Positions 4,168-45,112 of a stretch of DNA of 64,000 nt are shown piece by piece; positions within the stretch are counted from its first letter, which is position 1; each line of letters starts with the position of its first letter. A program made the translations under genes and the position numbers. Below the pieces are notes generated by a model. That model searched no databases. It had not been told where the DNA came from and saw nothing but the letters and a program-made list of their open reading frames with translations. Source of the DNA: Intestinimonas sp. (GTDB lineage Bacteria; Bacillota; Clostridia; Oscillospirales; Oscillospiraceae). Where the stretch lies: assembly GCA_022653075.1 (NCBI GenBank), contig JALCSB010000012.1:1-64000 (forward strand). Reading direction: 5' to 3'.

Positions 4168-4767
4168 ATGATGGAACGTTCAGACGTCGTCAAATTTTTT
4201 GATACACTTGCCCCGACTTGGGATGCGGAAATGACCCGCAGCGATGAGATCATAAACGTCATACTTGACTGCGGCGGTATTTTTGCCGGAAAACGGGTGC
4301 TGGATGTAGCCTGCGGCACAGGAGTTCTTTTCCCGGATTATCTGAACCGAAGTGTGAAATGTGTCGTAGGCGCAGATATTTCACCAGAGATGGTGAAAAT
4401 TGCAGCCGAAAAATATGATAACACGCATATTAAGGTTATATGTGCCGATGTTCAGGAATTGGAATTTGATGAAAAGTTCGACTGTGTCATGATATATAAT
4501 GCTTTTCCACATTTCCCTGAACCATCAAGGCTTCTTGCACATCTTACCAAATATATTGTACCAGGGGGACGTCTTACGGTCGCCCATGGTATGAGCCGTG
4601 TTAAGATTGACGCTCACCACCACGGCAAAGCGAGTAAGGTTTCTGTGGGTCTTATGCGCGAAAATGAACTGGCATCTCTGATGGGACGATGGTTCAAAGT
4701 GGATACGGTGATATCTGATGATGAAAAATATATCGTTTCCGGAGTGGTAATGCCCCAAAATGAATAG
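4168..4767 (+). CDS. Class I SAM-dependent methyltransferase
   Basis: Motif I 'VLDVACGTGVLFPDYL', motif 'VVGADISPEMV'. Confidence 0.87.
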   Translation: MMERSDVVKFFDTLAPTWDAEMTRSDEIINVILDCGGIFAGKRVLDVACGTGVLFPDYLNRSVKCVVGADISPEMVKIAAEKYDNTHIKVICADVQELEFDEKFDCVMIYNAFPHFPEPSRLLAHLTKYIVPGGRLTVAHGMSRVKIDAHHHGKASKVSVGLMRENELASLMGRWFKVDTVISDDEKYIVSGVVMPQNE

Positions 4768-5204
4768 TATCTTTCTACGGAGGAACATATGACGCTTGAA
4801 GAACTTAAATTGATGTGGAAGCCACCCCAGAGAGATACAGGGAACGGCCCAAAACTTTTCTATGAAAAAACAGATTATTGAAATAAGCTGGAAATGGCAT
4901 AGAGTGTAACGAAAGAAGCCAATCGAATCAAAGGATTGAACCTAATTTTTAAAGAACGATACAACTCGCTCCAGTACTGCTCCTTGTTACTACGCTTGCA
5001 TTTTAGTTAAGTAGTGGTTCTGTGGGAGATGGTTGTAGACGAAGGCGGGGTAAGCCCCGCGAGGAAGCCCAGCAGTGGCCCACATGCGGAAACAACCGAA
5101 AAGGAACAAAGACCACCGGACAGGAATTCCGGCCGGTGGTTTTGCTGCCTCGAAAATGGAGGCAAGTCCGCAGACGGTGTCGTCCACGGCTGGCTCCGGT
5201 TCGC

Positions 5205-5344
5205 CGAACTCACGCCAAGCTCTATCTCATCGATCAGGCGAGACCATGCGGCAGGGGCCGTACCAGCTGGTCCAGGAATCCAGCAGTACGGGGCGGCCAC
5301 TTTCCGTGATTTCTTTCTGGAAGTTTTCCGTCGCAATGGTTAAC
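5205..5344 (-). pseudogene. Thioredoxin remnant
   Basis: Minus-strand read 'LTIATENFQKEITESGRPVLLDSWTSWYGPCRMVSPDR*': Trx N-terminus with WCGPC changed to WYGPC, then stop and frameshift ('LIDEIE' continues in another frame). Confidence 0.75.
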
Positions 5345-5376
5345 ACAGACAGTCCTATACCGCCTATGTATTTCGT

Positions 5377-5607
5377 TTATTCCAGCGTGAGCGCCCTCAT
5401 GGGGCAGAACTTCACGCACTTCCCGCAACGGGTACATTTTTCCCGATCCACAGTGGGAGCTTCAAAACGCACCTGTGATAGAGCGCCCACCGGGCAGACC
5501 TTGACCGAGGGACAGGAATGGTTTTGCGGGCACCTACTTTTATTCACCATCAAGGCCTTTCCGGCGTTGCTTTCCGCCGTTGCCTTACGCCCAAATCCAA
5601 AAGCCAT
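5377..5607 (-). CDS. 4Fe-4S ferredoxin-like protein (76 aa)
   Basis: 'CPVGAL' and 'CTRCGKCVKFCPMRAL' cluster motifs. Confidence 0.72.
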   Translation of the reverse strand: MAFGFGRKATAESNAGKALMVNKSRCPQNHSCPSVKVCPVGALSQVRFEAPTVDREKCTRCGKCVKFCPMRALTLE

Positions 5608-5814
5608 TTCATTTAAGCCTCCTTTTGATCTTCTGCCTGCATTATATCGCCCTTTTTGTCTTCGCTCTGTGACGTTATCACGTTCTTTTTGCAGTTGGCC
5701 TGCACTTTTTTAGCGACGATTGCTTTCCTGATTCCAATAAAGGCCACATGCATAACTTGAATGGCGGCTGAGACTCATGTATAATGAATTTAAGACATTG
5801 TATGCGGGTGCGTT

Positions 5815-6052
5815 TGAACGGTTATATTGCCATCAGGAATTCTTGTGGCCCCACACAATTTCAAATACTCCCGGCAGTAAGTACCCTCCTGCTGTCAACG
5901 ATGTAGCAACATTGGTCGCTGACCCTGCACGTGGCTGTCGTGGTGTGTTATAGTGGCGTCAGTGGCAGGAGCTTCTCAACATGTGGGCCGATGAATTCCC
6001 CTCAATCACTAGTGGAGATATGCCGAATTTCTTTACATCCCGTATTATGACC
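5815..6052 (+). pseudogene. Possible decayed gene (C-terminal end of an SBP_bac_5-like binding protein)
   Basis: A stop-interrupted frame reads '...WRQWQELLNMWADEFPSITSGDMPNFFTSRIMT*', which resembles C-termini of peptide-binding SBPs; weak. Confidence 0.25.
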
Positions 6053-6078
6053 TGATTGCACGGAAAGAGGGTACTACT

Positions 6079-6483
6079 ATGACAGTAACACCAACTGCCC
6101 AATGTCCGCCTGCTGTGGCTACGGCAAGTTTTGAACGGAAGGCCCCTGCTGAGGCAAATGCAACGAACCTATCGAAAGATTCGGCGGCTTCGCGTGATTT
6201 GGCGTATTTCTCAAATAAGCTGAAGGATTTTGCACCGACGGAGGGTGTTTCCATCTCACCTACACTTCAGGCGGAGCTGCCCGACGGAAGCACCTTAAAG
6301 ATTGAAACGGTTCCGCCTAGCATACAAAAATATATCTTGGCAAAAGAGAACGCCTCTCGTAGTGTGATTGATGATTATTTTTTCTATCTTGATGCAAGCG
6401 GTATTAAGGAGCAGGCTGAGGGACTTAAACGCAATTTCCTAAGGAACAGGGCAGCGGTGAAGCTGATAGCGCGGGTGGTTTGA
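6079..6483 (+). CDS. Hypothetical protein (134 aa)
   Basis: Open reading frame preceded by a purine-rich stretch; no recognisable family. Confidence 0.5.
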   Translation: MTVTPTAQCPPAVATASFERKAPAEANATNLSKDSAASRDLAYFSNKLKDFAPTEGVSISPTLQAELPDGSTLKIETVPPSIQKYILAKENASRSVIDDYFFYLDASGIKEQAEGLKRNFLRNRAAVKLIARVV

Positions 6484-6720
6484 GAACAGAATACTGCTGG
6501 TTAAAGAGCAGATACCCAGCCCCCGTGGTTATGAAAAGCAGTGCTTTCAGGCTTTTTCTTTATTTATTGCGATGCAGATTTTAAACGCTGGAAACTGCCC
6601 TGACCCACACGGGGAAACGAGCGGGTGGAGACAACGGAATAAAAAGGGAGAAAAGACTCATCCTTCCGGAACAAAGACGATCTGAAACTGCTGCGCCGCA
6701 GAGGATTTCCCCCCATAGAA

Positions 6721-6769
6721 TCAGTTGGTGAGGATGAGGCCGGCGGTTCGAATCTGACCAGTAGCTCCC
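6721..6769 (+). pseudogene. Degenerate tRNA-Thr copy (anticodon arm deleted)
   Basis: 'tcagttggt...gaggatgaggccggcggttcgaatctgaccagtagctcc' matches tRNA-Thr 612-687 except for a ~17-18 nt gap and scattered substitutions. Confidence 0.8.
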
Positions 6770-27977: not shown

Positions 27978-28157
27978 GTCCACAGGAACTACAAGGACAC
28001 TGTTATGCCCTATCAGTCTCCTGCTGGCGGACACGGCATTTTCCTAGACGCCGCCAAGTTCTACCCGCAGCTTCCTTACTATGAGTTCCCGGGACAGGCG
28101 CTGGGTATCGAGCTGTACAAAGAGTGCGGCCTGCGCGCCTGTAACATTGGCTCCTAA
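27978..28157 (+). pseudogene. Fragment of a tryptophanase/tyrosine phenol-lyase-type beta-eliminating lyase
   Basis: In-frame read '[59 protein letters not shown]' resembles the tryptophanase/TPL family; no intact N-terminus. Confidence 0.75.
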
Positions 28158-28180
28158 ACGGCTCCCGTTTTATTCCGCGC

Positions 28181-28579
28181 TTACAGCGCGCAGCCGATAA
28201 CCGCATCCATCTCAATTTCAACAAACTGAGTTGGGCGGTTGAGTGCCGGAGTTCCTACGACCGTACACAGCGGGCGGATATCGTGAAAAATTTCCGAATA
28301 CGCCTGACAAATTTCACCGGAAAATTTCATATCAGTGGCGTATACTTTGATCTTGATAACGTCCGCCGCCGTTGCTCCGGCGGTATCCAGCAGCTTAATC
28401 TGCTTTTCCAGTACATATTTGGTCTGCTCATAGGCGGTTTCGCCGTATACTGTGCCGTCCGGCTGCACCGAGGTAGTGCCGCCCACAAAAACAAACGGCC
28501 CGGCCTTTACCATGCGGCTGTAACCAACTTTCTCCTCAAGGGGAGCGCCGGACGAATAGTTCGTTCTTTTAAGATCCAT
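28181..28579 (-). CDS. RidA-family protein
   Basis: 'YSRMVKAGPFVFVGGTTSVQPDGTVYGETAYEQTKYVLEKQIKLLDTAGATAADVIKIKVYATDM'; 'VEIEMDAVI' C-terminus. Confidence 0.9.
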   Translation of the reverse strand: MDLKRTNYSSGAPLEEKVGYSRMVKAGPFVFVGGTTSVQPDGTVYGETAYEQTKYVLEKQIKLLDTAGATAADVIKIKVYATDMKFSGEICQAYSEIFHDIRPLCTVVGTPALNRPTQFVEIEMDAVIGCAL

Positions 28580-28599
28580 GTCATGATCCTCCTGTTTTT

Positions 28600-29733
28600 T
28601 TATTTATTGGCCTTAAACCGGTCATAACGCAGGGCATGGAGGTCAACTTCAGGCTGGTCACCCACGGCAAGCTGACTGAGAAGTTTGCCCACCGCAGGGC
28701 CTATGCCAAAACCGTGGCCGGAGAATCCACAGGCCAGGATAAGGCCTGGGACCTCGCACACCGGGCTGATAACTGGAACCTTATCCGCGCAGATATCCAG
28801 CCAGCCGGACCAGGTGCGGACTATTTTTGCCTCGCGCAGGGCCGGAAAATACCCCATAATACCGCGGCACACCGCCGAAGAGGTCAAGCTGTTGGTGGGG
28901 GGGATGCCCTCCGTTTCCTCCAGAAAGTCTTCGATTCCGGAGGCACCGCCGAACACAAAAGAGCCATGCTGAGTTTGGTGCCCGTAGAAATCCGCCGCCG
29001 CAGTCCCCAACATCTGCCAGAACATGGGCGGCTGCGCTTCAGTGACCAGCGCCTCATCAATTTGCTGCGACATGGGTACGTCGATACCCACCGTGTTTGC
29101 AATGGCACGGCTGCCGTATCCCGCCGCCAGAATAATAGTGGCCCCTTCAAAACGGTCGCCCTCGCAGGTTACCACCTCGCGCGCTCGGCCACCGAGTTTT
29201 TTTACCTCCGTAACCCGAGCCCCGGTGAAAAAACGAACACCCAGCTGACGTGCCCTGCGGTAAAACGCAAGGGTCGTCACCATCGGGTTTGCGTGCCCGT
29301 CGGTGGGGCACCAGGAGGCGCCGATCACCTCATGGGTGAGATAGGGACAGATTTCCCGCGCCGTGTCTCCGGTAATCATGGAGACGTCCAACCCACAGGA
29401 CTTGGCATTATCCGTGAGAGCCTGAAGGGTTTTCAGGTGCTGCTCTGTCTTGCCCAAACGTAGGTTGCCCTTCTGATAATATTCGCAGTCTACTCCCAGT
29501 TCTTCGGAGAGCCAGGGCCAAATGGTCTGGATTCCCCATATGGCAATGGGCAGCTCCCGCTTATCGCGCCCGGACTGGCGCACGCCGCCGCCGTTTCGGG
29601 ACGAGCCGCCGTTGCCGATATAATCGCTTCCCTCCAAAACGATGACCGAGACCCCTTTTTTTGCAAGGTAATAGGCGGTGGCGTTTCCGATAATGCCGCC
29701 GCCTACGATAATGACATCTGCGGTATTAGTCAT
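28600..29733 (-). CDS. FAD-dependent amino-acid/amine dehydrogenase subunit (SoxB/HcnC/DadA-like)
   Basis: 'ADVIIVGGGIIGNATAYYLAKKGVSVIVLEGSD', C-terminal 'LILACGFSGHGFGIGPAVGKLLSQL'. Confidence 0.9.
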   Translation of the reverse strand: MTNTADVIIVGGGIIGNATAYYLAKKGVSVIVLEGSDYIGNGGSSRNGGGVRQSGRDKRELPIAIWGIQTIWPWLSEELGVDCEYYQKGNLRLGKTEQHLKTLQALTDNAKSCGLDVSMITGDTAREICPYLTHEVIGASWCPTDGHANPMVTTLAFYRRARQLGVRFFTGARVTEVKKLGGRAREVVTCEGDRFEGATIILAAGYGSRAIANTVGIDVPMSQQIDEALVTEAQPPMFWQMLGTAAADFYGHQTQHGSFVFGGASGIEDFLEETEGIPPTNSLTSSAVCRGIMGYFPALREAKIVRTWSGWLDICADKVPVISPVCEVPGLILACGFSGHGFGIGPAVGKLLSQLAVGDQPEVDLHALRYDRFKANK

Positions 29734-30064
29734 TCGGGACACCGCCTTCCTTTTCGTCGCCCAGAACGTACATTTCAATGGGGCGCATGGGCGCGCGGCT
29801 CGGCGCGGGCGTGAGGTTTGCGGGCTGCATATTCAGCTCGCGCGAGATAATACCCTGCACCAGCCTGCCACAGGTCTGGCCCTGACACAGACCCATACCC
29901 GCCCGTAAAAACCGCCGCACCTCCGTAATGGTCCGCATGCCGTCGTGGACGGCCCTGCGGATCTCGCCCTTGGTGATTTCCTCACAGCGGCAGATGATCA
30001 AATCGTCGTCAGGTGCAGGAACAAATTCACCAATGTCTTCGTTTCGGCTATAGAGCTTGCTCAT
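29726..30064 (-). CDS. [2Fe-2S]-binding BFD-like protein
   Basis: 'LIICRCEEITKGEIRRAVHDGMRTITEVRRFLRAGMGLCQGQTCGRLV' (C-x-C ... C-x4-C). Confidence 0.9.
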   Translation of the reverse strand: MSKLYSRNEDIGEFVPAPDDDLIICRCEEITKGEIRRAVHDGMRTITEVRRFLRAGMGLCQGQTCGRLVQGIISRELNMQPANLTPAPSRAPMRPIEMYVLGDEKEGGVPND

Positions 30065-31641
30065 ACCGCACCTCCCACTCTATACTGCCTTGCTCTCCCC
30101 GCCATCTGCGCCGGAACGCGGATAGTGAGCAGATTCGTCTGATCAAAAGCCGGAGCACTGCGCAGCGAAACCACCTCGCACGGGCACACAGGCGTTCCGC
30201 TGCGATCCAGAGCCATGCCTCTCTCTCCCGGCCTGGGAAGAGGCAGAAACTCATACGGCATAGTGACTTCTGCAAATCCTTCGCCCACATCCTCATTGAC
30301 TAAAAAAATAGCCTGGCCGGAGCAGGAGGCGACGCACATGCCGCAGCCGGAACACGATTTGCTTACGTCAACAGAAGGCAGGGCGGTGAGGTCCGCGCCG
30401 ATCTTAATACAGCCCCTGGGGCAGGCGTCCTGGCAGGGGTTACAGGGAATATTCTGTGTACATTCGATAACGGGGTGCAGCCCGGGCATATGGATCATGC
30501 CGGGATATGCCTCAAGCTCCGCCTCATCCATATAACCCTTCTGGAGAAGGTTCATAGAGATGGGCAGGCCCTCCTCCGTCTTTTTTGGAGCCTTGCCCCG
30601 GTTTTCCGGTGCGAACATCCCCTTTCTCAGGCTGGAAAGCGCCGCTTCATACTGCTTCAACCGTTCATCCCGCTCAGCCGCGCCTAAAAAGCCCAGGCGT
30701 TCGGCAACAGCGGCACCTGCGATGCGCCCTTCGATCATGGCGGAGGATGCCTCTTCAATACCGCTGACGTCGCCCGCCACATAGACCCCGGGCAGAGACG
30801 TCTGCCCGGTTTTGTCGCAGACCGGAGCATAACCGGTAGGTGCCTGCGTCATCTCACAGCCTGCCATTTTGCACAACTGGCTCATAGGCGACAGACCGAC
30901 GGCCAGACAGATGGTGTCCACCTCGAAGTGTTTTTCCGTACCCGGTATGGGTTTGAAGCTGTGGTCTACCTCCGCGATGACCACGCCGGTGACAAATTCT
31001 TCGCCCTCCGCCCGTACAATGGTGTGGCTAAGGTAAAAGGGCACGCTGCAACGCGCGACTTTCGCGGCGTGAACGCCGTATCCACCCACCCGGGGAGCGG
31101 CGTCCACCAGGGCGGCAAGCTCGCAGCCGGCCTGTAAAAGCTGATAGGAGACCACAAGGCCCACGTTGCCGGTACCCAGCATCAGGATGCGCTTGCCGGG
31201 CTTGATATGGTGCAGGTTCATCATGGTCTGCGCCGCACCGGCGCCGATGACGCCGGGAAGCGTCCAGCCGGGAAAGGGGACCATGTTTTCACTGGCGCCC
31301 GTAGCGATCAGAATTGCGTCGCCTTTCACATGGACGATTTCGTTGCCGATCCGTACCGTAACCTCCCGCTGGCGAAACAGGCCGATGACAGTGGCGTTTA
31401 AAATCACTTTGACGCCGCACGCGGACGCCTCTTTAAGCAGGTTTTCCCCGATGCGGAAGCCCCGGATTTTGGCATTGTGTTCCTTGGAGCCGAAAAACTT
31501 ATGGATTTGCTTGAAAAGCTGGCCGCCCGGCCTGGAATTTTCATCAAATACCACGACGGTAAGCCCGCATTTTGCCGCCTCAATGGCCGCGGAAAGCCCG
31601 CTGGGCCCTGCGCCCACGACGACCAAATCATATCTCTCCAT
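30061..31641 (-). CDS. FAD/NAD(P)-binding dehydrogenase subunit with C-terminal ferredoxin-type 4Fe-4S domain (SoxA/HcnB-like)
   Basis: 'DLVVVGAGPSGLSAAIEAAKCGLTVVVFDENSRPGGQLFKQIHKFFGS'; 'CNPCQDACPRGCI' and 'CSGCGMCVASCSGQAI'. Confidence 0.9.
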   Translation of the reverse strand: MERYDLVVVGAGPSGLSAAIEAAKCGLTVVVFDENSRPGGQLFKQIHKFFGSKEHNAKIRGFRIGENLLKEASACGVKVILNATVIGLFRQREVTVRIGNEIVHVKGDAILIATGASENMVPFPGWTLPGVIGAGAAQTMMNLHHIKPGKRILMLGTGNVGLVVSYQLLQAGCELAALVDAAPRVGGYGVHAAKVARCSVPFYLSHTIVRAEGEEFVTGVVIAEVDHSFKPIPGTEKHFEVDTICLAVGLSPMSQLCKMAGCEMTQAPTGYAPVCDKTGQTSLPGVYVAGDVSGIEEASSAMIEGRIAGAAVAERLGFLGAAERDERLKQYEAALSSLRKGMFAPENRGKAPKKTEEGLPISMNLLQKGYMDEAELEAYPGMIHMPGLHPVIECTQNIPCNPCQDACPRGCIKIGADLTALPSVDVSKSCSGCGMCVASCSGQAIFLVNEDVGEGFAEVTMPYEFLPLPRPGERGMALDRSGTPVCPCEVVSLRSAPAFDQTNLLTIRVPAQMAGRARQYRVGGAV

Positions 31642-31978
31642 TTTTATTACACCGCCTTATTTCCTGGTATGGCTGTGCGCTGACGCCGTATTGGGTCTGC
31701 ACACGCATGCCCTCCCGCAGCGGGGTAATACAGGTGCGTACATTTGGCGTGCCGTCCACGATCATAACGCAATCGGTGCACCTGCCAATAGCGCAAAAGA
31801 TGCCCCGGGGTTTGTGCTGCTTCGCCGTATAGCGGTGGACCATCACGCCGGCCGCCTTAAGCGCGGCGGCGATGGGCTCGCCTTCATAGCCGGTTAGTTC
31901 CCTGCCGTCGAGGGTAAAGGTGACGAGCCGTCTCTCCTCTGTGCTGCCCAGAATAGGGTGTTCTTGAATTCTCAACAT
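31628..31978 (-). CDS. [2Fe-2S] ferredoxin-like subunit (HcnA/SoxA-N-like)
   Basis: 'YEGEPIAAALKAAGVMVHRYTAKQHKPRGIFCAIGRCTDCVMIVDGTPNVRTCITPL'. Confidence 0.9.
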   Translation of the reverse strand: MLRIQEHPILGSTEERRLVTFTLDGRELTGYEGEPIAAALKAAGVMVHRYTAKQHKPRGIFCAIGRCTDCVMIVDGTPNVRTCITPLREGMRVQTQYGVSAQPYQEIRRCNKNGEI

Positions 31979-31994
31979 GCGCGCATCCCTCCCA

Positions 31995-33296
31995 TTACAA
32001 GCTTTTGCCGGCGGCGAAGCCAAAGCCCTCGCCGAAAACAAGGTCGCTGCCTGCAAGCGGAATGCCCGTCATGGCACAGCTCTCCAATGTTAAGGAACGC
32101 AGATCCTCCCGCTCAAGATTCTGGAGCTTGGTTTTCCCGGCCGCTTTTGCAAGGAGGACAGCCTCTTCCGTCATGGCCTTGATGTAGTTGGCCACCTTAT
32201 GGGCGGCCTCGTCGATGTCCAGCTTTGCCACCAACTCGGGGTCCTGCGTGCCGATACCGAAGGCGCAGCGCCCCGCCTGACAGTTCATGCAGACGCGGCA
32301 GCCCATGGCCACCATCGCCGCCGTACCGATGGCTATCGCATCGGCACCGATGGCCAGCGCTTTTGCCAGATCCGCCCCGTCTTTGACTCCACCGGAGACG
32401 ATGAGACTGACCCGGTCTTTTGCGCCGATCTCCTCCAGGGTGCGTACCGCCTGGACGGCGGCGGGCAGGATAGGGATACCCAGATGATCCGCCGCCATGA
32501 CGGGAGCGGCGCCGGTACCGGCGGTGCAACCGTCCAGAATAATCCCGTCAAAGCCCGCCTTAACGGCTATTTTGATGTCCTCGCGGACCCGAGCGGCGGC
32601 AATTTTGGCGAAAATCGGCGGAGTATGTCCGCCTGTATTCTTGTGCAGCATTTCGCGGAGCTGCTCGATTTTCACCACCAAATCGTCGGCGCCGAAGCTG
32701 TCACCGCTGCGGGGATGGGAGTGCAGATCGATACCGGCGGGGATCTGTCGGATCTTGGAGATTTCCTCGGTGATTTTGGCGCCCATCAGGTGCCCGGCCA
32801 GCCCCGGTTTTGCACCGATGCCGAACAGAATTTCCAGCATATCGGCTTTAAAAAGCAGATCTTTGTGAAAACCCATGCGGCTGGCCAAAATCTGAATGGA
32901 CTGGCGGTAGGAGTTTTCCATCTCTTCAGGAAGGCAGCCGCCTTCCCCGTTTGAAATCACGGTCCCCACCAGCGACGTCGCCTTGGCCAGCGCAATTTTC
33001 GCATGCTTGCTCAGTGCGCCAAAGGACATGCCCGCGATCATCACCGGGGTTTCGATCACGAGCGGGTTTTCCGCCGCCGGACCGAGCACCGTACGGGTGG
33101 AGCAGGACTCGCGATAGGTGTCGATGGGCATGCGGGTCAGCTGCCCGGGCAGAATCATGAGGTCGTCGAAATTAGGGACCCTGCGGGGAGAACCACATCC
33201 GCGGATGCGGTACTTACCGTTTTCCGCCTTATATTGAATTTCGGAGATCACCTGGTTCGACCAGGTGCCTTTTTCCGGATTCACGATTTTTGCCAT
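31995..33296 (-). CDS. FMN-binding glutamate synthase-type protein (GltB2/GlxD/MgsC-like)
   Basis: 'MIAGMSFGALSKHAKIALAKATSLVGTVISNGEGGCLPEEM', 'PAGIDLHSHPRSGDSFGADDL', 'DGIILDGCTAGTGAAP', Cys cluster 'CRVCMNCQAGRCAFGI'. Confidence 0.92.
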   Translation of the reverse strand: MAKIVNPEKGTWSNQVISEIQYKAENGKYRIRGCGSPRRVPNFDDLMILPGQLTRMPIDTYRESCSTRTVLGPAAENPLVIETPVMIAGMSFGALSKHAKIALAKATSLVGTVISNGEGGCLPEEMENSYRQSIQILASRMGFHKDLLFKADMLEILFGIGAKPGLAGHLMGAKITEEISKIRQIPAGIDLHSHPRSGDSFGADDLVVKIEQLREMLHKNTGGHTPPIFAKIAAARVREDIKIAVKAGFDGIILDGCTAGTGAAPVMAADHLGIPILPAAVQAVRTLEEIGAKDRVSLIVSGGVKDGADLAKALAIGADAIAIGTAAMVAMGCRVCMNCQAGRCAFGIGTQDPELVAKLDIDEAAHKVANYIKAMTEEAVLLAKAAGKTKLQNLEREDLRSLTLESCAMTGIPLAGSDLVFGEGFGFAAGKSL

Positions 33297-33298
33297 AC

Positions 33299-34024
33299 TT
33301 ATTCGCCTCTTTTCTTTGCGGCTTTTTCAGGCTCTAGAATGGGGCGGAACAGCGTATATTTGTGCTTGCCTGCGGCATCCAGAACGGGGCGTATCACATG
33401 GAACTGTTTCCCCTCCGCGTCAAACCCGTATTCAGCAAACAGAGCATCCAGTTCCGCCGCCTCTTCCTCCGTGATCTCACTGTACGCCACATTTCCACCG
33501 AGTTTACCGGCGGCGCCGGGATCGCGGGTGAAGATTTTACCCTCATACATGCTTTCCCCGGCCCCAAGGCCAAGGGAGCCGAGTACAATCAGTTCTCCGC
33601 CCATGGCCATCTGGCCCGCCCAGCGCTCGGCGCTGCCGCCGATGATAATATGCCCGCCCTTCATGCCGTAACCGACCCGGGTGCCGGTGCTGCCGTAGAC
33701 CACCAGATCACCTCCGGCGATATAGGTACCCACGTTGCAGCCGGTGTTCTGCTCAACGATCAGCTTTCCGCTGACCATATTGTCACCCGCGTACCAGCCC
33801 ACGTTGCCTTTTACCCGCACTTCGGCGTTTTCCAGGTAACTGCAGGTGTACATGCCCGTGGAGTCCTCAATCGTCACCTTCACCGGCTGGTCGGTTCCGG
33901 CCAGTACATAGTGCATGGAGTGGACATTGGAAATCAGAATCTCTTTGGCCCCGTCTTCAATGGCCTTCCAGACCATGGGGTTAAAGTCCTTGTTTGCAAC
34001 GGCCGAAGCGTCTATATGTTCCAT
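33299..34024 (-). CDS. GXGXG-motif protein (GltB3/GlxC/MgsB-like)
   Basis: 'GNVGWYAGDNMVSGKLIVEQNTGCNVGTYIAGGDLVVYGSTGTRVGYGMKGGHIIIGGSAERWAG'. Confidence 0.92.
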   Translation of the reverse strand: MEHIDASAVANKDFNPMVWKAIEDGAKEILISNVHSMHYVLAGTDQPVKVTIEDSTGMYTCSYLENAEVRVKGNVGWYAGDNMVSGKLIVEQNTGCNVGTYIAGGDLVVYGSTGTRVGYGMKGGHIIIGGSAERWAGQMAMGGELIVLGSLGLGAGESMYEGKIFTRDPGAAGKLGGNVAYSEITEEEAAELDALFAEYGFDAEGKQFHVIRPVLDAAGKHKYTLFRPILEPEKAAKKRGE

Positions 34025-34908
34025 ACCCGAACCTCCCCCGGCTCCATTTCGTTGGCGAAAATATGCCCGTCGATGGCGGTAAACTCGATCTGCTCCGAGC
34101 CGAGCATCACGTAGTTATCCGTCTCCGCCACCAAAAGTGGCTTGATGCCCAGCTTATCCTTGACAAAGCCCATCTGAGTGGGGGTGGACGCGATGATGCA
34201 GTAAACCCCGTCCATCTGGTCGCCGGCATATTCCAGCGCCTTCTGGAGGTCGCCGTCAAACAGGGTCATCGCATAGGCGATCAGATGGCTGGCGGCCTCA
34301 GAGTCGTTGAGCGTCTTGAATTTAGCCCCCTTGGACTCAAGAAAACGCCGCATATTGAAATAATTCGTAAACTGTCCGTTATGTACAATAGCCAGCTCCG
34401 GATAAAACGGCGAGACGAAGGGATGGGCGGCATTTACGTCCTCCGCGCTCTCCGTCGCCATGCGGACGTGCCCGATACCGTGGCGGCACATATAGTTTTT
34501 AAGTTCATAGCGGCCGGTAAGATTTTCAATGAAACCGCCTTCTTTGTAAACCTTGAAATGGCTGCTGATCGAATGGACGTCAAGTTCCTCGTCGCTGTTG
34601 ATCTTCTCATGGAGCGCCTTGATTTTTTCGGGGTCCATATCCACGGCAAATTCATAGCAAAGCTTATTCGTTATATTGGTCACGCTGGATTGGCTGAGGA
34701 TGACGCCGCATTCCGCAATGTACTCTTTGAGATGGCCCAGAGCCTCCGCCTTCTGTAAGGTCACACGCAGGGTAACTTGCTCGGTGTCCTGAAAAACAGC
34801 CACTCCGGCGGCATCAGGACCGCGATGCTGAATCAGGGACAGCATGGTGACAAGGTCCTGCGCAATATCCACCGGCGTCCTGCTGATAATACCCGCAATT
34901 CCACACAT
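34012..34908 (-). CDS. Class II glutamine amidotransferase (GltB1/GlxB/MgsA-like)
   Basis: N-terminal 'MCGIAGIISRTPVD' Ntn-Cys; 'IGHVRMATESAEDVNAAHPF', 'AIVHNGQFTNYFNMRR'. Confidence 0.93.
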   Translation of the reverse strand: MCGIAGIISRTPVDIAQDLVTMLSLIQHRGPDAAGVAVFQDTEQVTLRVTLQKAEALGHLKEYIAECGVILSQSSVTNITNKLCYEFAVDMDPEKIKALHEKINSDEELDVHSISSHFKVYKEGGFIENLTGRYELKNYMCRHGIGHVRMATESAEDVNAAHPFVSPFYPELAIVHNGQFTNYFNMRRFLESKGAKFKTLNDSEAASHLIAYAMTLFDGDLQKALEYAGDQMDGVYCIIASTPTQMGFVKDKLGIKPLLVAETDNYVMLGSEQIEFTAIDGHIFANEMEPGEVRVWNI

Positions 34909-34927
34909 CTGAGTTCACTCCAATTCC

Positions 34928-36292
34928 TTATACATGGTAGGAATATGTATCCATTTCCCAGTCGGTAACCGACTTTTTATACTGTTCTACCTCATACATC
35001 TTCATTGAGCTGAACAGCTCGGTCAGCTCGGGGGAGAACTGCTTGGAGAACCACTCGTCGTTTTGCAGCTCATTCACGGCCCGGAACAGACTTCTCGGCA
35101 CGGTACCGCACTCGCCCTGCCGCACTTTGTCGTGGTACAGGTCGGTGATGATTTTTGCGGGAGGCTCAATTTTGTTCTTGATCCCATCCAATGCCGCAGC
35201 CAGGATTGCGCCCAGGCCGAGATAGGGATTGCAGGCTGCCGATGCGGCGCGGACCTCAAGCCGGGCCCCCTTGCCGCGTTCCCTGGGAATGCGAACGTAA
35301 GAGGTGCGGTTATCCATACCCCAGCCAAGATAGATGGGGGCGAAGGAATCCGGCTGATATCGCTTATAGCAGTTGACCGTGGGAGCCAGAAAAGCGGACA
35401 TGCCGCAGCCGTGCTTCAAAATGCCGCCGATCATGTAGCGCAGCGTGTCACTGATTCCATCCTCGCCGTTCTGGTCGTCACAGATGTTTTTTCCTGTCTC
35501 CAGATCGTTAAGGGACAGATGGAAGTGACAGCCGCTGCCGCCGCCCGCGCCTTTGGGCTTTGCCATAAAGGTGACCATCATGTCGTTCATCTCCGCGATA
35601 TCCTTGCACAGTTCCTTGAAGAGGGACGATTCATCGGCGGCACGGACCGCGCTGGCATGCTTCCAGTTGTACTCGTACTGGCCGGGGAAATACTCGTGGT
35701 TCATGAACAGCACATTATAGTCCATATGCTTGAAAGTATCCGTAATCTGATAAAGGAAGTTCTTGGGGTCGGTGCGCTCGTTGGCGGTATAGCAGTTGGA
35801 GTTCTGATTGGTATAGGGAACGTAGGCTCCATTTGCATCTTTTTTGTAAACGAAAAATTCCAGCTCGCACGCGGCAATGGGGTCATAGCCCATCTTAAAG
35901 TATTCATCCACGACTTGCTTTAAAAAACCGCGGGGCGAAACGCGCATGGGTGCGCCGTTGTAGTAGACGTCGCCCAACATGACCGCTGTCTTGTTGGCAA
36001 ACGGCAACGGTGTAAAGGTGGACGGGTCCGGAATCACCGTCATGTCGTTGCTGGTGGAAGGGAGATAGTCGGTGGAAAGAATGCTGTTGTCGTATTCCAT
36101 GCCCATGGAGGCGGCGCAGAATGCCACGCCGTCCTTGATTTCATCCAGCATCTCCACCGGCAGCAGCTTCCCGCGCTGAACGCCCAGCAGGTCGGTATAC
36201 TCCAGTCGGAGCATCTCGATGCCCTTGTCCTGAATCATTTTTTCGATCTCAGAAAAGGTTAAAATCTCCTGTTTTGTAAATTTGTCTTTCAA
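34928..36292 (-). CDS. Glutamine-synthetase-family gamma-glutamyl ligase (PuuA/GMAS-like); start approximate
   Basis: 'ELEFFVYKKD', 'KPKGAGGGSGCHFHLSL', 'NCYKRYQPDSFAPIYLGWGMDNRTSYVRIP', 'LEVRAASAACNPYLGLGAILAAALDGI'. Confidence 0.88.
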   Translation of the reverse strand: MKDKFTKQEILTFSEIEKMIQDKGIEMLRLEYTDLLGVQRGKLLPVEMLDEIKDGVAFCAASMGMEYDNSILSTDYLPSTSNDMTVIPDPSTFTPLPFANKTAVMLGDVYYNGAPMRVSPRGFLKQVVDEYFKMGYDPIAACELEFFVYKKDANGAYVPYTNQNSNCYTANERTDPKNFLYQITDTFKHMDYNVLFMNHEYFPGQYEYNWKHASAVRAADESSLFKELCKDIAEMNDMMVTFMAKPKGAGGGSGCHFHLSLNDLETGKNICDDQNGEDGISDTLRYMIGGILKHGCGMSAFLAPTVNCYKRYQPDSFAPIYLGWGMDNRTSYVRIPRERGKGARLEVRAASAACNPYLGLGAILAAALDGIKNKIEPPAKIITDLYHDKVRQGECGTVPRSLFRAVNELQNDEWFSKQFSPELTELFSSMKMYEVEQYKKSVTDWEMDTYSYHV

Positions 36293-36308
36293 AGGGACCA
36301 CACTCCTC

Positions 36309-37733
36309 TCACGATTGCTCGGTTGCAGGGTTTGCATCATAGGTAACCAGTTCTTCGAAGGTTGTTTTGCCCGCGTTGATCACGGCCAGATCAACCGGTT
36401 TGAAAGGCTTCGCCTTCATCACCCCGCAGGTCCAAACGAAGGCATAGACCACAAGCAGGGCAAAAAGTACGCCGAAAATTTTGAAAATCAGGATACGGGT
36501 GTCACCGTCTGCAATGAACCAGATCATATAAATGTTGCCCAGGATGCCGACGATCTGCGGAATACCGGCAAAGGTCAGCTTCTTATTGCGGGGGGCGTTG
36601 GGATAGCGGTGACGCAGGACCAGAACCGAGGCATGGATAAGAATGTAAGTAACCAGCCAAAAACAGGAGGCGGCCAGGATGACGAAGGTGATGCCGCTTG
36701 TCATGGCAATGTTGGAAAGGAGCAGGGCGGCGTCCAGCACGCCCATGAGAATGAGGCCGTTTACGGCGGCGCCGTGATGGTTGGTTTTGGAGAGAACTTT
36801 GGGCATCATGCCCTCTTCCGCCATGCCCATGAGAATCTTGGACGTGGATACGTAGACGGTGTTCATAGTACTAACAGCGGCTAAAATGGTGACAAATCCC
36901 ATCCAGTACTTGCCGGGCGCACCAAAAAGATTTTCAGCAAAGGTCATATGGGGCGTCCCGCTGGGGTCCGCGGCCAGGACGCTGAGGTCGACATAGTTTG
37001 CCATGGCGTTACCGAGAACAGCCTGCACCACAAACAGAAGCACAAGCCCCAGCATCATGGCGAGGAGAACGTCCCGCTTGGGGTTTTTCATGTCTTTCGC
37101 CACGGGAATGACAAATTCAACGCCGATGTACAGCCAGAATGCCAGCGCCGACAGGCTCATGAGAGGGCCGAAGCCGGAGACGGCGGGGGCGGACTGCTGG
37201 GCGGCCGAAATCAAGGTGCCGGTACCCAGGCCCAGGGAGCCGAGTATGCCGAACAGGGCCATGGAGCCGATTAGCAGAATAACCACCAGGTTTTGGACCT
37301 TGGAAAAAACGTCGACGCCGAAGCAGTTGATGATAAAAAAGAACGCGAGAACCAGCATGGAAATAATCCTCGGATCAAGGCCGGGAAAGAACAGCTGGCA
37401 GAGCACCACGCCGCACATGGCCAGTTCTGCCGTGGAGGCGAGCACCATTGTGATAACGTATGCGGAGACGTTGCCGACAATGGAGGGTACCGGACCAAAA
37501 CTGGTCAACAAATACTGCCCAGTGCCGCCGTCCACGCCTGGCATCATCCGGTGCAGCTCACCGAAAGAAAGAGCAATAAACGAGTTGAGAATCATAACGA
37601 TGAACAGTGGAATGATGAATGCTTTGCCGGCAAGCCCGATGCCGGTTCCAAGTGAGACCAGACAACTGGTTGCAACAATCAGGCCAACGCATACAGCTAC
37701 ACCGCTGCCCAACCCCAGTTTTTTTCCCTTCAC
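36309..37733 (-). CDS. APC-family amino-acid permease
   Basis: Multi-TM; 'MMPGVDGGTGQYLLTSFGP', 'SALAFWLYIGVEFVIPVAKDMKNPKRDV'; GTG start with aggtgg RBS. Confidence 0.88.
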   Translation of the reverse strand: MKGKKLGLGSGVAVCVGLIVATSCLVSLGTGIGLAGKAFIIPLFIVMILNSFIALSFGELHRMMPGVDGGTGQYLLTSFGPVPSIVGNVSAYVITMVLASTAELAMCGVVLCQLFFPGLDPRIISMLVLAFFFIINCFGVDVFSKVQNLVVILLIGSMALFGILGSLGLGTGTLISAAQQSAPAVSGFGPLMSLSALAFWLYIGVEFVIPVAKDMKNPKRDVLLAMMLGLVLLFVVQAVLGNAMANYVDLSVLAADPSGTPHMTFAENLFGAPGKYWMGFVTILAAVSTMNTVYVSTSKILMGMAEEGMMPKVLSKTNHHGAAVNGLILMGVLDAALLLSNIAMTSGITFVILAASCFWLVTYILIHASVLVLRHRYPNAPRNKKLTFAGIPQIVGILGNIYMIWFIADGDTRILIFKIFGVLFALLVVYAFVWTCGVMKAKPFKPVDLAVINAGKTTFEELVTYDANPATEQS

Positions 37734-37770
37734 AAAAAACCACCTCTTTTTCCAAAAATAAAAAAACAAA

Positions 37771-37803
37771 GGCAGCAGGGACCTTGTTGACGTCCTTGCT
37801 GCC
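37771..37803 (-). terminator. Leader hairpin (attenuator or tandem terminator) ahead of the permease operon
   Basis: Minus strand GGCAGCAAGGAC...GTCCCTGCTGCC then TTTGTTTTTTTATTTTT, located downstream of a TTGACA-N17-TACACT promoter (about 37818-37846). Confidence 0.7.
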
Positions 37804-37903
37804 TCATGTTGTAGTAAGTGTACCTCAGAACCAATTATATGTCAACATTTATTCTAGATAAAATTATTGGCAATTAATTGACCTGTTAAACCTATATAAA
37901 AAT

Positions 37904-37945: not shown

Positions 37946-39415
37946 TCAGCCGCTCGCCACGTATTCCCGGAGGCGCCGTCTGACCCAATCCATATTTTTG
38001 TTTATAGGGGGGATGCGCCCGTACAGGTTTTGCAAGTAGGAGACATAGCCGCCGATATAGGTCGGCTCGGTGGAGTAGATGAGGTTATCATATTTACTGT
38101 CGTCCCAGATGATAACAAGCCGGCCTGCCTGAGCTACCACGGAGACGTCTTTTTCCTGTATGCCCATGTCCCGGAATGAGATGAGGTCGATTTCCATCTC
38201 CCCCCGTTCCACGGTATCGGATACGTATTGCAGCTGGCGCAGATACTGTTCCCGTGTTACGTAGATGGGCCGGCCGATAATACGGGAAAGCATCTTTGCC
38301 GTGTGTGTTTCCATCTGCAGGCGGGCCTCAATGGCGTCGATATCATACATCTGGATATACTTACAATGGTGCCGCATCTGGTGCCGTTTGGTTACGGTGC
38401 CAATACACCGTTCGATCTGCACCCGGTCTACGCCATTTTCCTCCAGAATCTCAGCCAGAAGCTCCGGCGGCATATTAATGTACGTCGGCACCCGGCAAAT
38501 CATATAGGTGGGGTCGAATACGCTCAGATTCTTTTTCATAAGATTCACGGTTTCCATATGCTCCGCCAGCCGCAGCTTGAAGAACACAGGCTTTGAGCGC
38601 GCGACGTAGTCCTCGACTCTGGCCTGATAATAGCTGAGCATGCGGTAATCCGTATAATGCGTATAGGTGAGCAGCTGGGGCTTCTGCTCAAAATAGTAGC
38701 CGACCAGCGCAAGTTTATCTCTGATACAGTAATAGTTGCCCTTTTCCGCGTCCGTGAAATTCCCGATGATATAATTTAAATCCACACCGTCGGCCATATA
38801 CATGTCCATCCACCGGCCCAAAACCTCGTAGGAGCGGTAGCTGTTCCCCAGAATATCAATAATGCGGACCCGATGTCCCCGCTTCACACAGGCAATGACA
38901 TAGTCGCTGGTGAGATGAAACCGCTCCCGTTCCGTTGTGCTCCAGTCGATATCACCAAAATCGCAGAGCGTGATCTGGGTTGGACGGGCGGAGAGGGCTG
39001 CCTTCCAAAACTGCTCCATGGAAAGCTTCCAGCCCTCCAAGTCGCCGGAATACACCCGCATCGCCGCCTGATAGTTCACCATATCCTCCCGGCCGGAGGT
39101 GTCGTCGATCGCCTGTATATTGCCCCTGCTGAGAAGATAACAGAGCCCCTCGACCTTTTCCCCGTACGAGAGAGCGGAAAAGCCGTCGATAACCAGGTTA
39201 AGCTGACGGTCCAACTCTTTTTGATGGAGTGAAAAGCGGTCGCTTAAAAAATATGCGGCGATAGCGCGGCAGGTCTCCGAATCGGCGGAAAGCTTGCGTT
39301 TTCCAGTGCGCCATTTGCTGACCGTGGTGGTGTCTGTATCAATTTCAACCGCAAGCTCTTTACCGCTTACCTGCAGCAAGTCCATGAAATAGGCAAGCAT
39401 GGTATCCCGTTTCAC
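37946..39415 (-). CDS. Helix-turn-helix regulator with large C-terminal domain
   Basis: N-terminal 'LLQVSGKELAVEIDTDTTTVSKWRTGKRKLS' XRE-like HTH followed by ~430 aa uncharacterised region. Confidence 0.75.
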   Translation of the reverse strand: MKRDTMLAYFMDLLQVSGKELAVEIDTDTTTVSKWRTGKRKLSADSETCRAIAAYFLSDRFSLHQKELDRQLNLVIDGFSALSYGEKVEGLCYLLSRGNIQAIDDTSGREDMVNYQAAMRVYSGDLEGWKLSMEQFWKAALSARPTQITLCDFGDIDWSTTERERFHLTSDYVIACVKRGHRVRIIDILGNSYRSYEVLGRWMDMYMADGVDLNYIIGNFTDAEKGNYYCIRDKLALVGYYFEQKPQLLTYTHYTDYRMLSYYQARVEDYVARSKPVFFKLRLAEHMETVNLMKKNLSVFDPTYMICRVPTYINMPPELLAEILEENGVDRVQIERCIGTVTKRHQMRHHCKYIQMYDIDAIEARLQMETHTAKMLSRIIGRPIYVTREQYLRQLQYVSDTVERGEMEIDLISFRDMGIQEKDVSVVAQAGRLVIIWDDSKYDNLIYSTEPTYIGGYVSYLQNLYGRIPPINKNMDWVRRRLREYVASG

Positions 39416-39642
39416 AGCATACGCCTCTCTTCCTCTGAGCGTGACTGCATGACCGCAGACCTCGCCGTGCTGACATAACTGCTTTCAGCCGGTTTGAAGC
39501 AGGGATGCGGCGGATGCCGCGCAAATAGAGCACAAAGCGGCTGATTCAGCAGACATTATTATAGCATATTTTCTGCCGGCTTCAAGGAATAGCCTTGAAA
39601 ATTGACGGCGATATGCTAAACTCTAGAAAAGGAGGCGGCAGC

Positions 39643-40068
39643 ATGAATAATTTGTTTTCTTATGGTACTTTCCGCTCGGCGTATGTGCAGAAGCGGCTGT
39701 TTGGACGTGAAGTTCCGGCGAAACCCGCTGAGCTGACAGGGTATGGGGTCTACGCCGGTAAGGATGGCTATCATGGGCTGCTCCCCTGTGAAAGCGCCGC
39801 GGTAAGCGGTGCGCTTCTGGAACTCACGGACCGCAAATTAGACATCGCCGACGGCTGGGAGATCTGCCCGAAGCTCTACTACCGCCGGGAAATGGAACTC
39901 TGCGTGGGCGGCGTGCCTGTCCCGGCCTGGGTCTATTTCCGCACAGATCCCGATGCGCTGAGCGGGAGGATTGAGGACGGCAATCTTCTCTTCACTTTAC
40001 CTCAGACGCAGCTTGACCGTGAGCTCGATGAATATATCGAGGAACTGAAACAGAAGGGGCTTTTGTAA
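39643..40068 (+). CDS. Gamma-glutamylcyclotransferase (AIG2/GGCT-like) family protein
   Basis: 'LFSYGTFRSAYVQKRLFGREVPAKPAELTGYGVY' start motif; RBS aaggagg. Confidence 0.85.
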   Translation: MNNLFSYGTFRSAYVQKRLFGREVPAKPAELTGYGVYAGKDGYHGLLPCESAAVSGALLELTDRKLDIADGWEICPKLYYRREMELCVGGVPVPAWVYFRTDPDALSGRIEDGNLLFTLPQTQLDRELDEYIEELKQKGLL

Positions 40069-43633: not shown

Positions 43634-45112
43634 TCATAAATATACCATTTTAGTCGCAATGTTTTCACAGAACGCACGGTCATGCTCGACAAATAAAATG
43701 GTAGGTTTAAATTTAAGCAGCAACGCTTCAATCTGTATACGGGAGATAACATCCATATAGTTTAATGGCTCATCCCACACATACAAATGTGCCTTGTCAC
43801 AGAGGCTTTTGGCGATTAATAGTTTCTTTTTCTGACCTTCGCTGAAATCGGCCATATCCTGGTCAAACTGTTCTCTAGAAAAATCCAGCTTGCGCAAAAT
43901 TGCTTTGAATAAACTCTCATCCATCTCATGTTTTCCCACAAAGTCCGATAAATTTCCCTTTAGAAATGAGGTGTCTTGTGAAACATAGGATAGGTTCAAT
44001 CCGCTTCCAATATGAAGGTTACCGCAATATGGAATATTCTCGCGGCAGATCAGCTTCAAAACACTGGATTTGCCGCTTCCGTTTTTTCCACATAGCGCAA
44101 CCCTGTCACCTGTTTCAAGGATAAAAGATATATTTTGACACACAATGTGCGCACCGTAAAAAATGGAAACATTATTCAGAGAGACAAGTGGACTTGCATG
44201 ATAAGGCCGTTGATCTATTTTTAGAGGTTCTGCACTCTCGACATTTTTTAAAAGCTGTGATTTTTCTGCTATAACAGACTGCTGCCGAACCTCCAGCACC
44301 TTCGAGCGCTTCATGGTTTTTGCGGCCTTATGTCCAAGATACCCCCTGTCTGGGCGTAATCCGGAATTCCGGGTTCCATATTTGGCCTTTTCCGCTTTAT
44401 TTGACCAGGCCGCCTTTTCTTCTGCTGCTTTTTTGAGCCGCTTAATTTCCTTTTTCAGACTTTCATTTTTCGCGAACTCCAAGCTGTCCTGACATTCCTT
44501 GCTGGAAAGCCACGATGAAAAATGACCTTGTACCACCTCAATATTCGTTTTATTAATTGATAAAATATGGTCAACACACCCGTCTAAAAAGGATCTGTCA
44601 TGGGAAATTAGGATAAATCCTTTTTTACGATTCAAATATTGGGATACGAGTTTTCTGCCGTGTGCGTCAAGATGATTGGTGGGTTCATCCATCAGTAAAA
44701 AATGATTTTCCTTCAAGAATAGCGCAGCCAGCAATACTTTCGTCTGTTCACCCTTTGAGAGCGTTTTAAACGGGCGGTGCAGCACGGATTCCTCAACTTC
44801 CAAAAGGGATAATTCGCGCGAAAGCTCCCATTGAACATAATCCGGATATACTTCCGCAATCACATCTTGGGTATCAGCGGATGCATCCCTGACGGCAAAC
44901 GGGAAATAGTCAAAAGTTACGGAGTGTGTGATCTTTCCCTGATAGGGATATTTGCCAAGCAGAAGGTGTAAAAAAGTGGTTTTTCCTCTGCCGTTTCTGC
45001 CTATAAACCCCAGCTTCCAGTCTGTATCAATCTGGAAGCTGACATTTTCAAAAATATTATGATAGCTACCGTCGTAGCCAAAGGTCAGATTGGTAATTTT
45101 TATTTGTGACAT
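43634..45112 (-). CDS. ABC-F protein, Lsa/Vga-like (putative antibiotic resistance type)
   Basis: Two ABC domains: GRNGRGKTT and GKNGSGKSS; 'LSKGEQTKVLLAALFLKENHFLLMDEPTNHLDAHGRKLV'; Lys-rich linker. Confidence 0.88.
   Translation of the reverse strand: MSQIKITNLTFGYDGSYHNIFENVSFQIDTDWKLGFIGRNGRGKTTFLHLLLGKYPYQGKITHSVTFDYFPFAVRDASADTQDVIAEVYPDYVQWELSRELSLLEVEESVLHRPFKTLSKGEQTKVLLAALFLKENHFLLMDEPTNHLDAHGRKLVSQYLNRKKGFILISHDRSFLDGCVDHILSINKTNIEVVQGHFSSWLSSKECQDSLEFAKNESLKKEIKRLKKAAEEKAAWSNKAEKAKYGTRNSGLRPDRGYLGHKAAKTMKRSKVLEVRQQSVIAEKSQLLKNVESAEPLKIDQRPYHASPLVSLNNVSIFYGAHIVCQNISFILETGDRVALCGKNGSGKSSVLKLICRENIPYCGNLHIGSGLNLSYVSQDTSFLKGNLSDFVGKHEMDESLFKAILRKLDFSREQFDQDMADFSEGQKKKLLIAKSLCDKAHLYVWDEPLNYMDVISRIQIEALLLKFKPTILFVEHDRAFCENIATKMVYL

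Follow-up and report, generated by a model that had tools for sequence, protein, structure and literature searches.

The 64,000-nucleotide stretch of an Intestinimonas sp. genome analysed here (contig JALCSB010000012.1, positions 1 to 64,000; hereafter the window) carries on its minus strand a run of ten genes, from 37733 down to 28181, all of which are intact and tightly spaced or overlapping. The first-pass annotation had described this run as a candidate operon for an anaerobic N-alkylglutamate pathway, made up of an APC permease, a glutamine synthetase (GS)-like ligase, a glutamate synthase split into three parts, an amine dehydrogenase and a RidA protein. The run lies where it was placed, and NCBIfam and Pfam domain searches of the ten operon proteins recovered the families that had been named. 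The block should also take in the regulator gene (REG) at 37946-39415, giving 11 genes, the regulator plus ten (Table 1). The open reading frames of the operon are not due to chance; differences between the FMN subunit and its closest relative, at locus L025, are 0.08/0.04/0.49 at codon positions 1/2/3, a ratio that indicates strong purifying selection on this subunit. As argued below from sequence comparisons, the operon is fairly likely to specify an N-alkylglutamate route by which a primary amine is used anaerobically.

Table 1. Features of the operon and its immediate surroundings, in window coordinates.
Feature	Position	Strand	Evidence
REG transcriptional regulator, N-terminal helix-turn-helix (HTH) and phospholipase D (PLD)/TrmB-like ligand domains	37946..39415	-	orthologues, AlphaFold model
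Predicted REG operator, direct repeat GTCAAT-N5-GCCAATA, 11-bp spacing	37865..37882	-	repeat common to 9 REG loci
Predicted promoter TTGACA-17-TACACT	37817..37845	-	equivalent TTGACA promoters in relatives
Leader hairpin, then U-rich tract	37768..37804	-	same place in 9/9 loci
APC-superfamily permease	36309..37733	-	PF13520; GTG start set by homology
GS-family amine ligase, predicted gamma-glutamyl-amide synthetase	34928..36340	-	PF00120; TIGR03105 329 bits
Class II amidotransferase subunit, MgsA/GlxB-like	34012..34908	-	PF13522
GXGXG subunit, MgsB/GlxC-like	33299..34024	-	PF01493
FMN glutamate-synthase-domain subunit, MgsC/GlxD-like	31995..33296	-	PF01645 305 bits
[2Fe-2S] subunit (Fer2), SoxA N-terminal-like	31628..31978	-	PF13510
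FAD/NAD-binding subunit (PyrR), two predicted [4Fe-4S], SoxA middle-like	30061..31641	-	TIGR01372 soxA 128 bits
BFD-like [2Fe-2S] subunit	29726..30064	-	PF04324 and PF17806
DAO/SoxB-like FAD amine dehydrogenase subunit	28600..29733	-	PF01266 235 bits
Rid-family (YjgF) protein, Cys for catalytic Arg105	28181..28579	-	PF01042
GGACT/AIG2-like (gamma-glutamylamine cyclotransferase-like), divergent neighbour	39595..40068	+	PF06094

Besides the window, 12 loci were compared, namely ten found in a scan of species genomes together with those of genomes G483 and G1065. Gene order is conserved: the operon genes found have the same order and orientation in all 12 as far as the contigs reach, and the core enzymes are 50-93% identical across operon loci (51-87% for the GXGXG subunit among operon relatives). 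Where contigs allow, unrelated anaerobes such as Fusibacter, Anaeromicropila and others have the regulator and the ten genes in identical order. The regulator is immediately upstream in nine copies, the window included, and the APC permease is 55-66% identical among these REG-linked loci. In Syntrophomonas, three genes separate a more distant APC permease from the ligase; these inserts (4388-6761 in both L030 and L031) encode a DUF3156 protein, a WD40-repeat protein and a class I glutamine amidotransferase. Because the ligase and FMN subunit trees, which were built with small reference sets and contain several long branches, group the loci alike, we conclude that the block moves as a single unit.

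Glutamine synthetase uses Asp50' to bind ammonium and take a proton from it, and its site is closed by a Glu flap (Glu304 in B. subtilis, Glu327 in Salmonella), whereas GmaS has Ala and Trp in place of Asp50' and the flap Glu (PMC7948447), and the ethanolamine ligase GlnA4 is likewise without both (PMC6529630). In every operon ligase that covers the site, Asp50' has given way to Cys or Ala and the flap Glu to Phe, the window ligase having Cys75 and Phe333 at these positions. Of the GmaS pocket residues, Lys30' (K58), Tyr147 (Y184) and Asn188 (N225) are kept; the window ligase scores 329 bits with TIGR03105, under the cut-off of 469.6. Judged by its active site, the ligase is not a glutamine synthetase. 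Because both ammonia residues are replaced, GmaS residues are kept in part and the operon ligases form a separate clade, the protein is predicted from its residues to be an amine ligase outside GmaS.

The class II amidotransferase, GXGXG and FMN proteins are three separate subunits that adjoin the amine ligase, as in MgsABC. The amidotransferase retains Cys2, Arg29, Asn177-Gly178 and Asp202 (the N-terminal Cys, Arg, His-Asn-Gly and Asn-Asp motifs). The FMN subunits of the operon form one group with MgsC/GlxD and with those of two other anaerobic loci (support 97/97), and this group is set apart from GltB, the archaeal-type split synthases and the Fer4-fused form (97/97), which bears out the expectation that the split synthase is distinct from the archaeal type. 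The operon subunit is not nested within the proteobacterial MgsC proteins. The archaeal-type split glutamate synthase has the same domain split and the four-Cys motif in its FMN subunit, but belongs to a separate clade (97/97), is only 34-37% identical and lies in another gene context. Loci L015-L018 were considered as operon relatives and rejected, because the synthase tree shows them to be archaeal-type split glutamate synthases. In the operon FMN subunit, C333, C336, C339 and C344 occupy the position of the glutamate-synthase Fe-S cluster; of five proteobacterial MgsC/GlxD proteins compared, four have lost these cysteines. What serves N-methylglutamate synthase as redox partner has been described as unknown (PMC6237917).

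The Fer2, PyrR and BFD proteins match consecutive parts of SoxA, and the DAO protein matches SoxB. The cysteines C60, C65, C68 and C81 of Fer2 are kept in 11/11 proteins, those of PyrR for two predicted [4Fe-4S] clusters in 10/10, and C25, C27, C60 and C65 of BFD in 9/9. In the SoxA beside the Rhizobium N-methylglutamate (NMG)-type locus L023, by contrast, 4/4 Fer2, 3/4 BFD and most PyrR cysteine positions are replaced. This difference is the strongest support for the proposal, already made in the first-pass annotation, that electrons leave through the Fe-S clusters, and the proposal is strongly supported by the conserved cysteines. The domain searches also upheld the absence of SoxD, SoxG and the folate-binding GcvT part from the operon. 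Because these parts are missing and the DAO subunit, which does not group with MgdA, falls in a separate clade, the enzyme is, by sequence, not an N-methylglutamate dehydrogenase (MgdABCD). With heterotetrameric sarcosine oxidase (SoxBDAG) it shares the Fer2, Pyr_redox and BFD order of the SoxA parts and the SoxB-type DAO; it differs in being split into four small proteins, in keeping the Fe-S ligands, and in having neither a folate domain nor a delta or gamma subunit. Like the PDH1/Hcn-type Fe-S amine dehydrogenases, the operon enzyme has its DAO, FAD/NAD and Fe-S parts on separate subunits and its cysteines intact, and the solved structures closest to its DAO subunit are 1y56_B (142 bits), from the Pyrococcus representative of the PDH1/Hcn/opine-oxidase type, and sarcosine oxidase beta. 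However, the sets of that type examined are unlinked to a ligase and synthase, and the operon PyrR has two [4Fe-4S] motifs.

Comparison of the permease with the PDB pinned no substrate and placed it in the APC superfamily only; its solved relatives carry amino acids and agmatine, and the presence of such a permease hints at an amine larger than methylamine. A gene of the GGACT/AIG2 family directly adjoins the block in three copies (the window, Fusibacter and G1065), and in G1065 it is the sole such gene found in 4 Mb. The gene speaks for a route by way of a gamma-glutamyl-amide, but since it is missing from several other operon-bearing genomes, it is at most accessory. The GGACT proteins of L028 (15311-16303) and L058 (15967-16905) have a long C-terminal extension. 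A second GGACT gene in the genome (C1) was rejected as the relevant copy, being of another type and in a different context.

REG has no Pfam match, and orthologues 30-33% identical to it occupy the same place in eight loci. Its AlphaFold model (pLDDT 78) matches phospholipase-D-fold proteins and archaeal TrmB/TrmBL2; because the full-length TM-scores against the matched structures are low, this likeness is a hint at the domain level only, and the HKD motif (HxKxxxxD) is absent from REG. The REG-APC intergenic regions of all nine REG loci (the window, L014, L026, L027, L028, L032, L033, L034 and L058) contain a direct repeat, G[CA]CAAY-N5-G[CA]CAA, seven exactly and two with one mismatch. In 421,388 positions searched there were seven exact matches in all, each at a REG locus. 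The repeat, which we predict to be the operator of REG, is separated from the downstream -35 hexamer by 36-37 bp in eight of the nine loci, a spacing that suits an activator and for that reason makes REG probably one. A TTGACA-type promoter followed by a leader hairpin is present in 9/9 loci, mostly with a U-rich tract. The hairpin matched no Rfam family; it is possibly an attenuator or a stabiliser of the 5' end.

The ten scan loci came from 85,462 species genomes and belong to Fusibacter paucivorans, Anaeromicropila populeti, a Lachnoclostridium metagenome-assembled genome (MAG), two Syntrophomonas MAGs, an Oscillospiraceae MAG (L032), three further MAGs of Clostridia and a contig assigned to Desulfobacter, perhaps through mis-binning. 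The list is incomplete, because the scan patterns were all taken from the N-terminus of the FMN protein. The GXGXG protein was found in one of 396 genomes of the order, that of the window alone; the operon is thus not general in the order, although another member of the Oscillospiraceae, the MAG of L032, has it too. A sample of the class yielded one further genome, G483, with an orthologue at 59% identity, and a sample of the phylum one further genus only, the same Syntrophomonas MAGs again (matches G731 and G856 are loci L030 and L031 and were counted once). Of about 20 genomes from the genus of G483, just two have the operon. The G+C content is 56% in the operon and 50-53% in its surroundings. 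The spread is rare and patchy, and we take it to be that of a horizontally moving cassette. A comparison with an empty site in the same-genus genome G175 failed, as the flanking genes were too diverged for anchoring. Just 3' of the last operon gene lies a tryptophanase gene remnant (27995-28160, + strand; 53 residues, E 5.5e-17), and at 43634-45112 on the - strand is a gene for an ABC-F protein near the Lsa-type ribosomal protection family (741 bits, cut-off 750). No amine-specific link was found among the other window genes sampled.

The interpretation that best fits these results is a series of steps acting on a primary amine. The APC permease would import the amine, and the ligase, to judge from its active-site residues, would spend ATP to couple it to glutamate at the gamma-carboxyl. 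The split synthase, by its clade and catalytic residues, would then free the amine, channel it to 2-oxoglutarate and reduce the imine to N-alkylglutamate. Finally, the Fe-S-rich SoxAB-like complex, in which the cysteines are conserved, would oxidise N-alkylglutamate, yielding glutamate and either an aldehyde or a ketone, with electrons leaving by way of the [2Fe-2S] and [4Fe-4S] clusters. The HTH/PLD-like regulator, probably as an activator, would control the operon through the 11-bp direct repeat. The sum predicted from the known chemistry of these families is amine + 2-oxoglutarate + ATP + H2O -> carbonyl (aldehyde or ketone) + glutamate + ADP + Pi, and would be redox-neutral because the two electrons taken up by the synthase are balanced by two given off by the dehydrogenase. 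The electrons of the dehydrogenase might go back to the synthase; NAD+ or ferredoxin is equally possible as the acceptor.

The proposed route would follow the same logic as the NMG pathway (gmaS, mgsABC, mgdABCD/soxBDAG), with another ligase clade, another dehydrogenase and Fe-S electron handling, in anaerobes. Both have a ligase, three synthase parts and a SoxAB-like dehydrogenase, and their FMN subunits are of one clade. The operon FMN subunit, however, keeps the Fe-S cysteines that MgsC lost, its dehydrogenase keeps those lost in SoxA and has no SoxD, SoxG or GcvT, and the operon adds the APC permease, the Rid-like protein and a regulator of its own. The IpuC, PuuA and GlnA4 routes also use GS-family ligases that glutamylate amines and are without the ammonia residues (PMC6529630). 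In these routes the gamma-glutamyl-amide itself is oxidised (P450 genes adjoin ipuC; puuB), whereas the operon would first move the amine onto 2-oxoglutarate.

Related gene sets occur at other anaerobic loci. In L055 (426-9345; G939:C10), genes for a DAO protein, a ligase, EtfB, EtfA, a partial glutamate synthase, a glutamine amidotransferase, a GXGXG protein and an FMN protein run in one direction, and the ligase groups with GlnT (95/93); by its gene content the locus looks like a variant of the same pathway linked to electron-transfer flavoprotein (ETF). L053 (5407-17972) and L061 (5014-7678; G682:C25) hold a bacterial microcompartment operon with an IpuC-like ligase (100/99), three synthase parts, and an octopine-dehydrogenase-family protein with an N-terminus like that of an encapsulation peptide, together with aldehyde dehydrogenase, phosphate propanoyltransferase, acetate kinase, shell proteins and a Fer4-fused glutamate synthase. 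Most of this set is repeated in a second genus, at L054, and its content suggests a possible amine-degrading microcompartment. The main text of the microcompartment catalogue makes no mention of glutamine synthetase, glutamate synthase or opine dehydrogenase (PMC8217296). These sets show that a ligase, a split synthase and a differing oxidising enzyme meet repeatedly, which speaks for the proposed route. A more speculative extension, which we put forward tentatively and consider rather unlikely as a whole, is that the Fe-S chain feeds the Fe-S/FMN synthase in a loop, so that an amine that is otherwise inert undergoes ATP-driven, redox-neutral transamination without oxygen or an external acceptor, and that such a system was assembled at least three times in anaerobes (with an own-clade, an IpuC-like and a GmaS-like ligase), once in a microcompartment.

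Several observations weigh against an N-alkylglutamate route. In the operon ligases, Asp177 of GmaS is replaced by Asn and Gln175 by Phe or Tyr, and the 13 ligases form a deep clade of their own (100/100), apart from both GlnA (100/100) and GlnT/GmaS (100/99). The DAO subunit is likewise a clade of its own, whose place among the secondary-amine oxidases the tree leaves unsettled, and the Lys of the SoxB GGFK motif is Gly. The operon is accompanied by no gene that is specific to a substrate or that would handle an aldehyde. Arg105 is a criterion for the imine deaminase activity of RidA (PMC5619798), and because Cys replaces it in 9/9 Rid-family proteins of the operon, these are not canonical RidA imine deaminases; such activity is unlikely, and the idea that the protein clears imine intermediates is not supported.

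As a special case of the N-alkylglutamate route, the substrate could be methylamine and the product formaldehyde, that is, a true anaerobic NMG pathway. The reaction logic is the same and several GmaS pocket residues are common to the operon ligase; however, two others differ, neither a folate-binding GcvT domain nor a formaldehyde gene accompanies the operon, and an APC permease is found here versus an ammonium transporter in the one NMG-type locus examined in this respect (L022). We regard this version as unlikely; the methylamine label of the first-pass annotation is without support, and methylamine itself is neither supported nor excluded as the substrate. Alternatively, the dehydrogenase might act first, oxidising a secondary amine or an N-substituted amino acid brought in from outside, and the ligase and synthase would capture the freed amine. 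That the closest solved relative of the DAO subunit is the 1y56 complex, that plasmid-borne sets of DAO, 2Fe-2S and PyrR genes adjoin amino-acid genes without ligases, and that the solved relatives of the permease transport amino acids and agmatine would fit such an order. The captured amine, however, would be discarded as N-alkylglutamate without a further enzyme, and the NMG-type, ETF, microcompartment and present architectures all pair an oxidase with ligase and synthase, for which a downstream role is the better fit; we consider an upstream role improbable. It is more doubtful still that N-alkylglutamate or the gamma-glutamyl-amide is an end product, such as a solute or a detoxified amine, with the dehydrogenase only recycling it. 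N-methylglutamate does build up when mgsABC-gmaS is expressed alone (PMC6237917), and the GGACT-like gene beside three copies could undo gamma-glutamylation, but in every complete copy the run includes the dehydrogenase, whose conserved Fe-S clusters number about four. Ordinary ammonia assimilation with a split archaeal-type glutamate synthase, for which family-level homology and the higher phmmer score of the ligase against ordinary GS structures (240 bits) than against GmaS (204 and 194 bits) could be cited, is rejected as very improbable by the replacement of both ammonia residues in all members, the synthase clade, the rare and patchy spread and the presence elsewhere in the window genome (2.05 Mb, 97.7% complete) of its own GlnA and, on another contig, a full-length GltB with a GltD-like neighbour, because of which the operon is not the housekeeping ammonia-assimilation set.

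The first-pass reading is thus supported in part, and its core idea of an N-alkylglutamate route stands: as far as sequence reaches, the ligase does not resemble a maker of glutamine, the synthase is not of the archaeal type and the gene order is conserved. The NMG route was described for aerobes, and in the literature covered, with most subscription journals outside its scope, we found neither an anaerobic version nor a microcompartment with glutamine synthetase or opine dehydrogenase. A collinear anaerobic version with Fe-S clusters in both synthase and dehydrogenase suggests where the synthase may obtain its electrons. The named isolates that carry the operon, Fusibacter paucivorans DSM 12116 and Anaeromicropila populeti 743A, are candidates for an anaerobic use of amines for which we found no described pathway, and the annotations "glutamine synthetase", "glutamate synthase" and "sarcosine oxidase" in these anaerobes would change.

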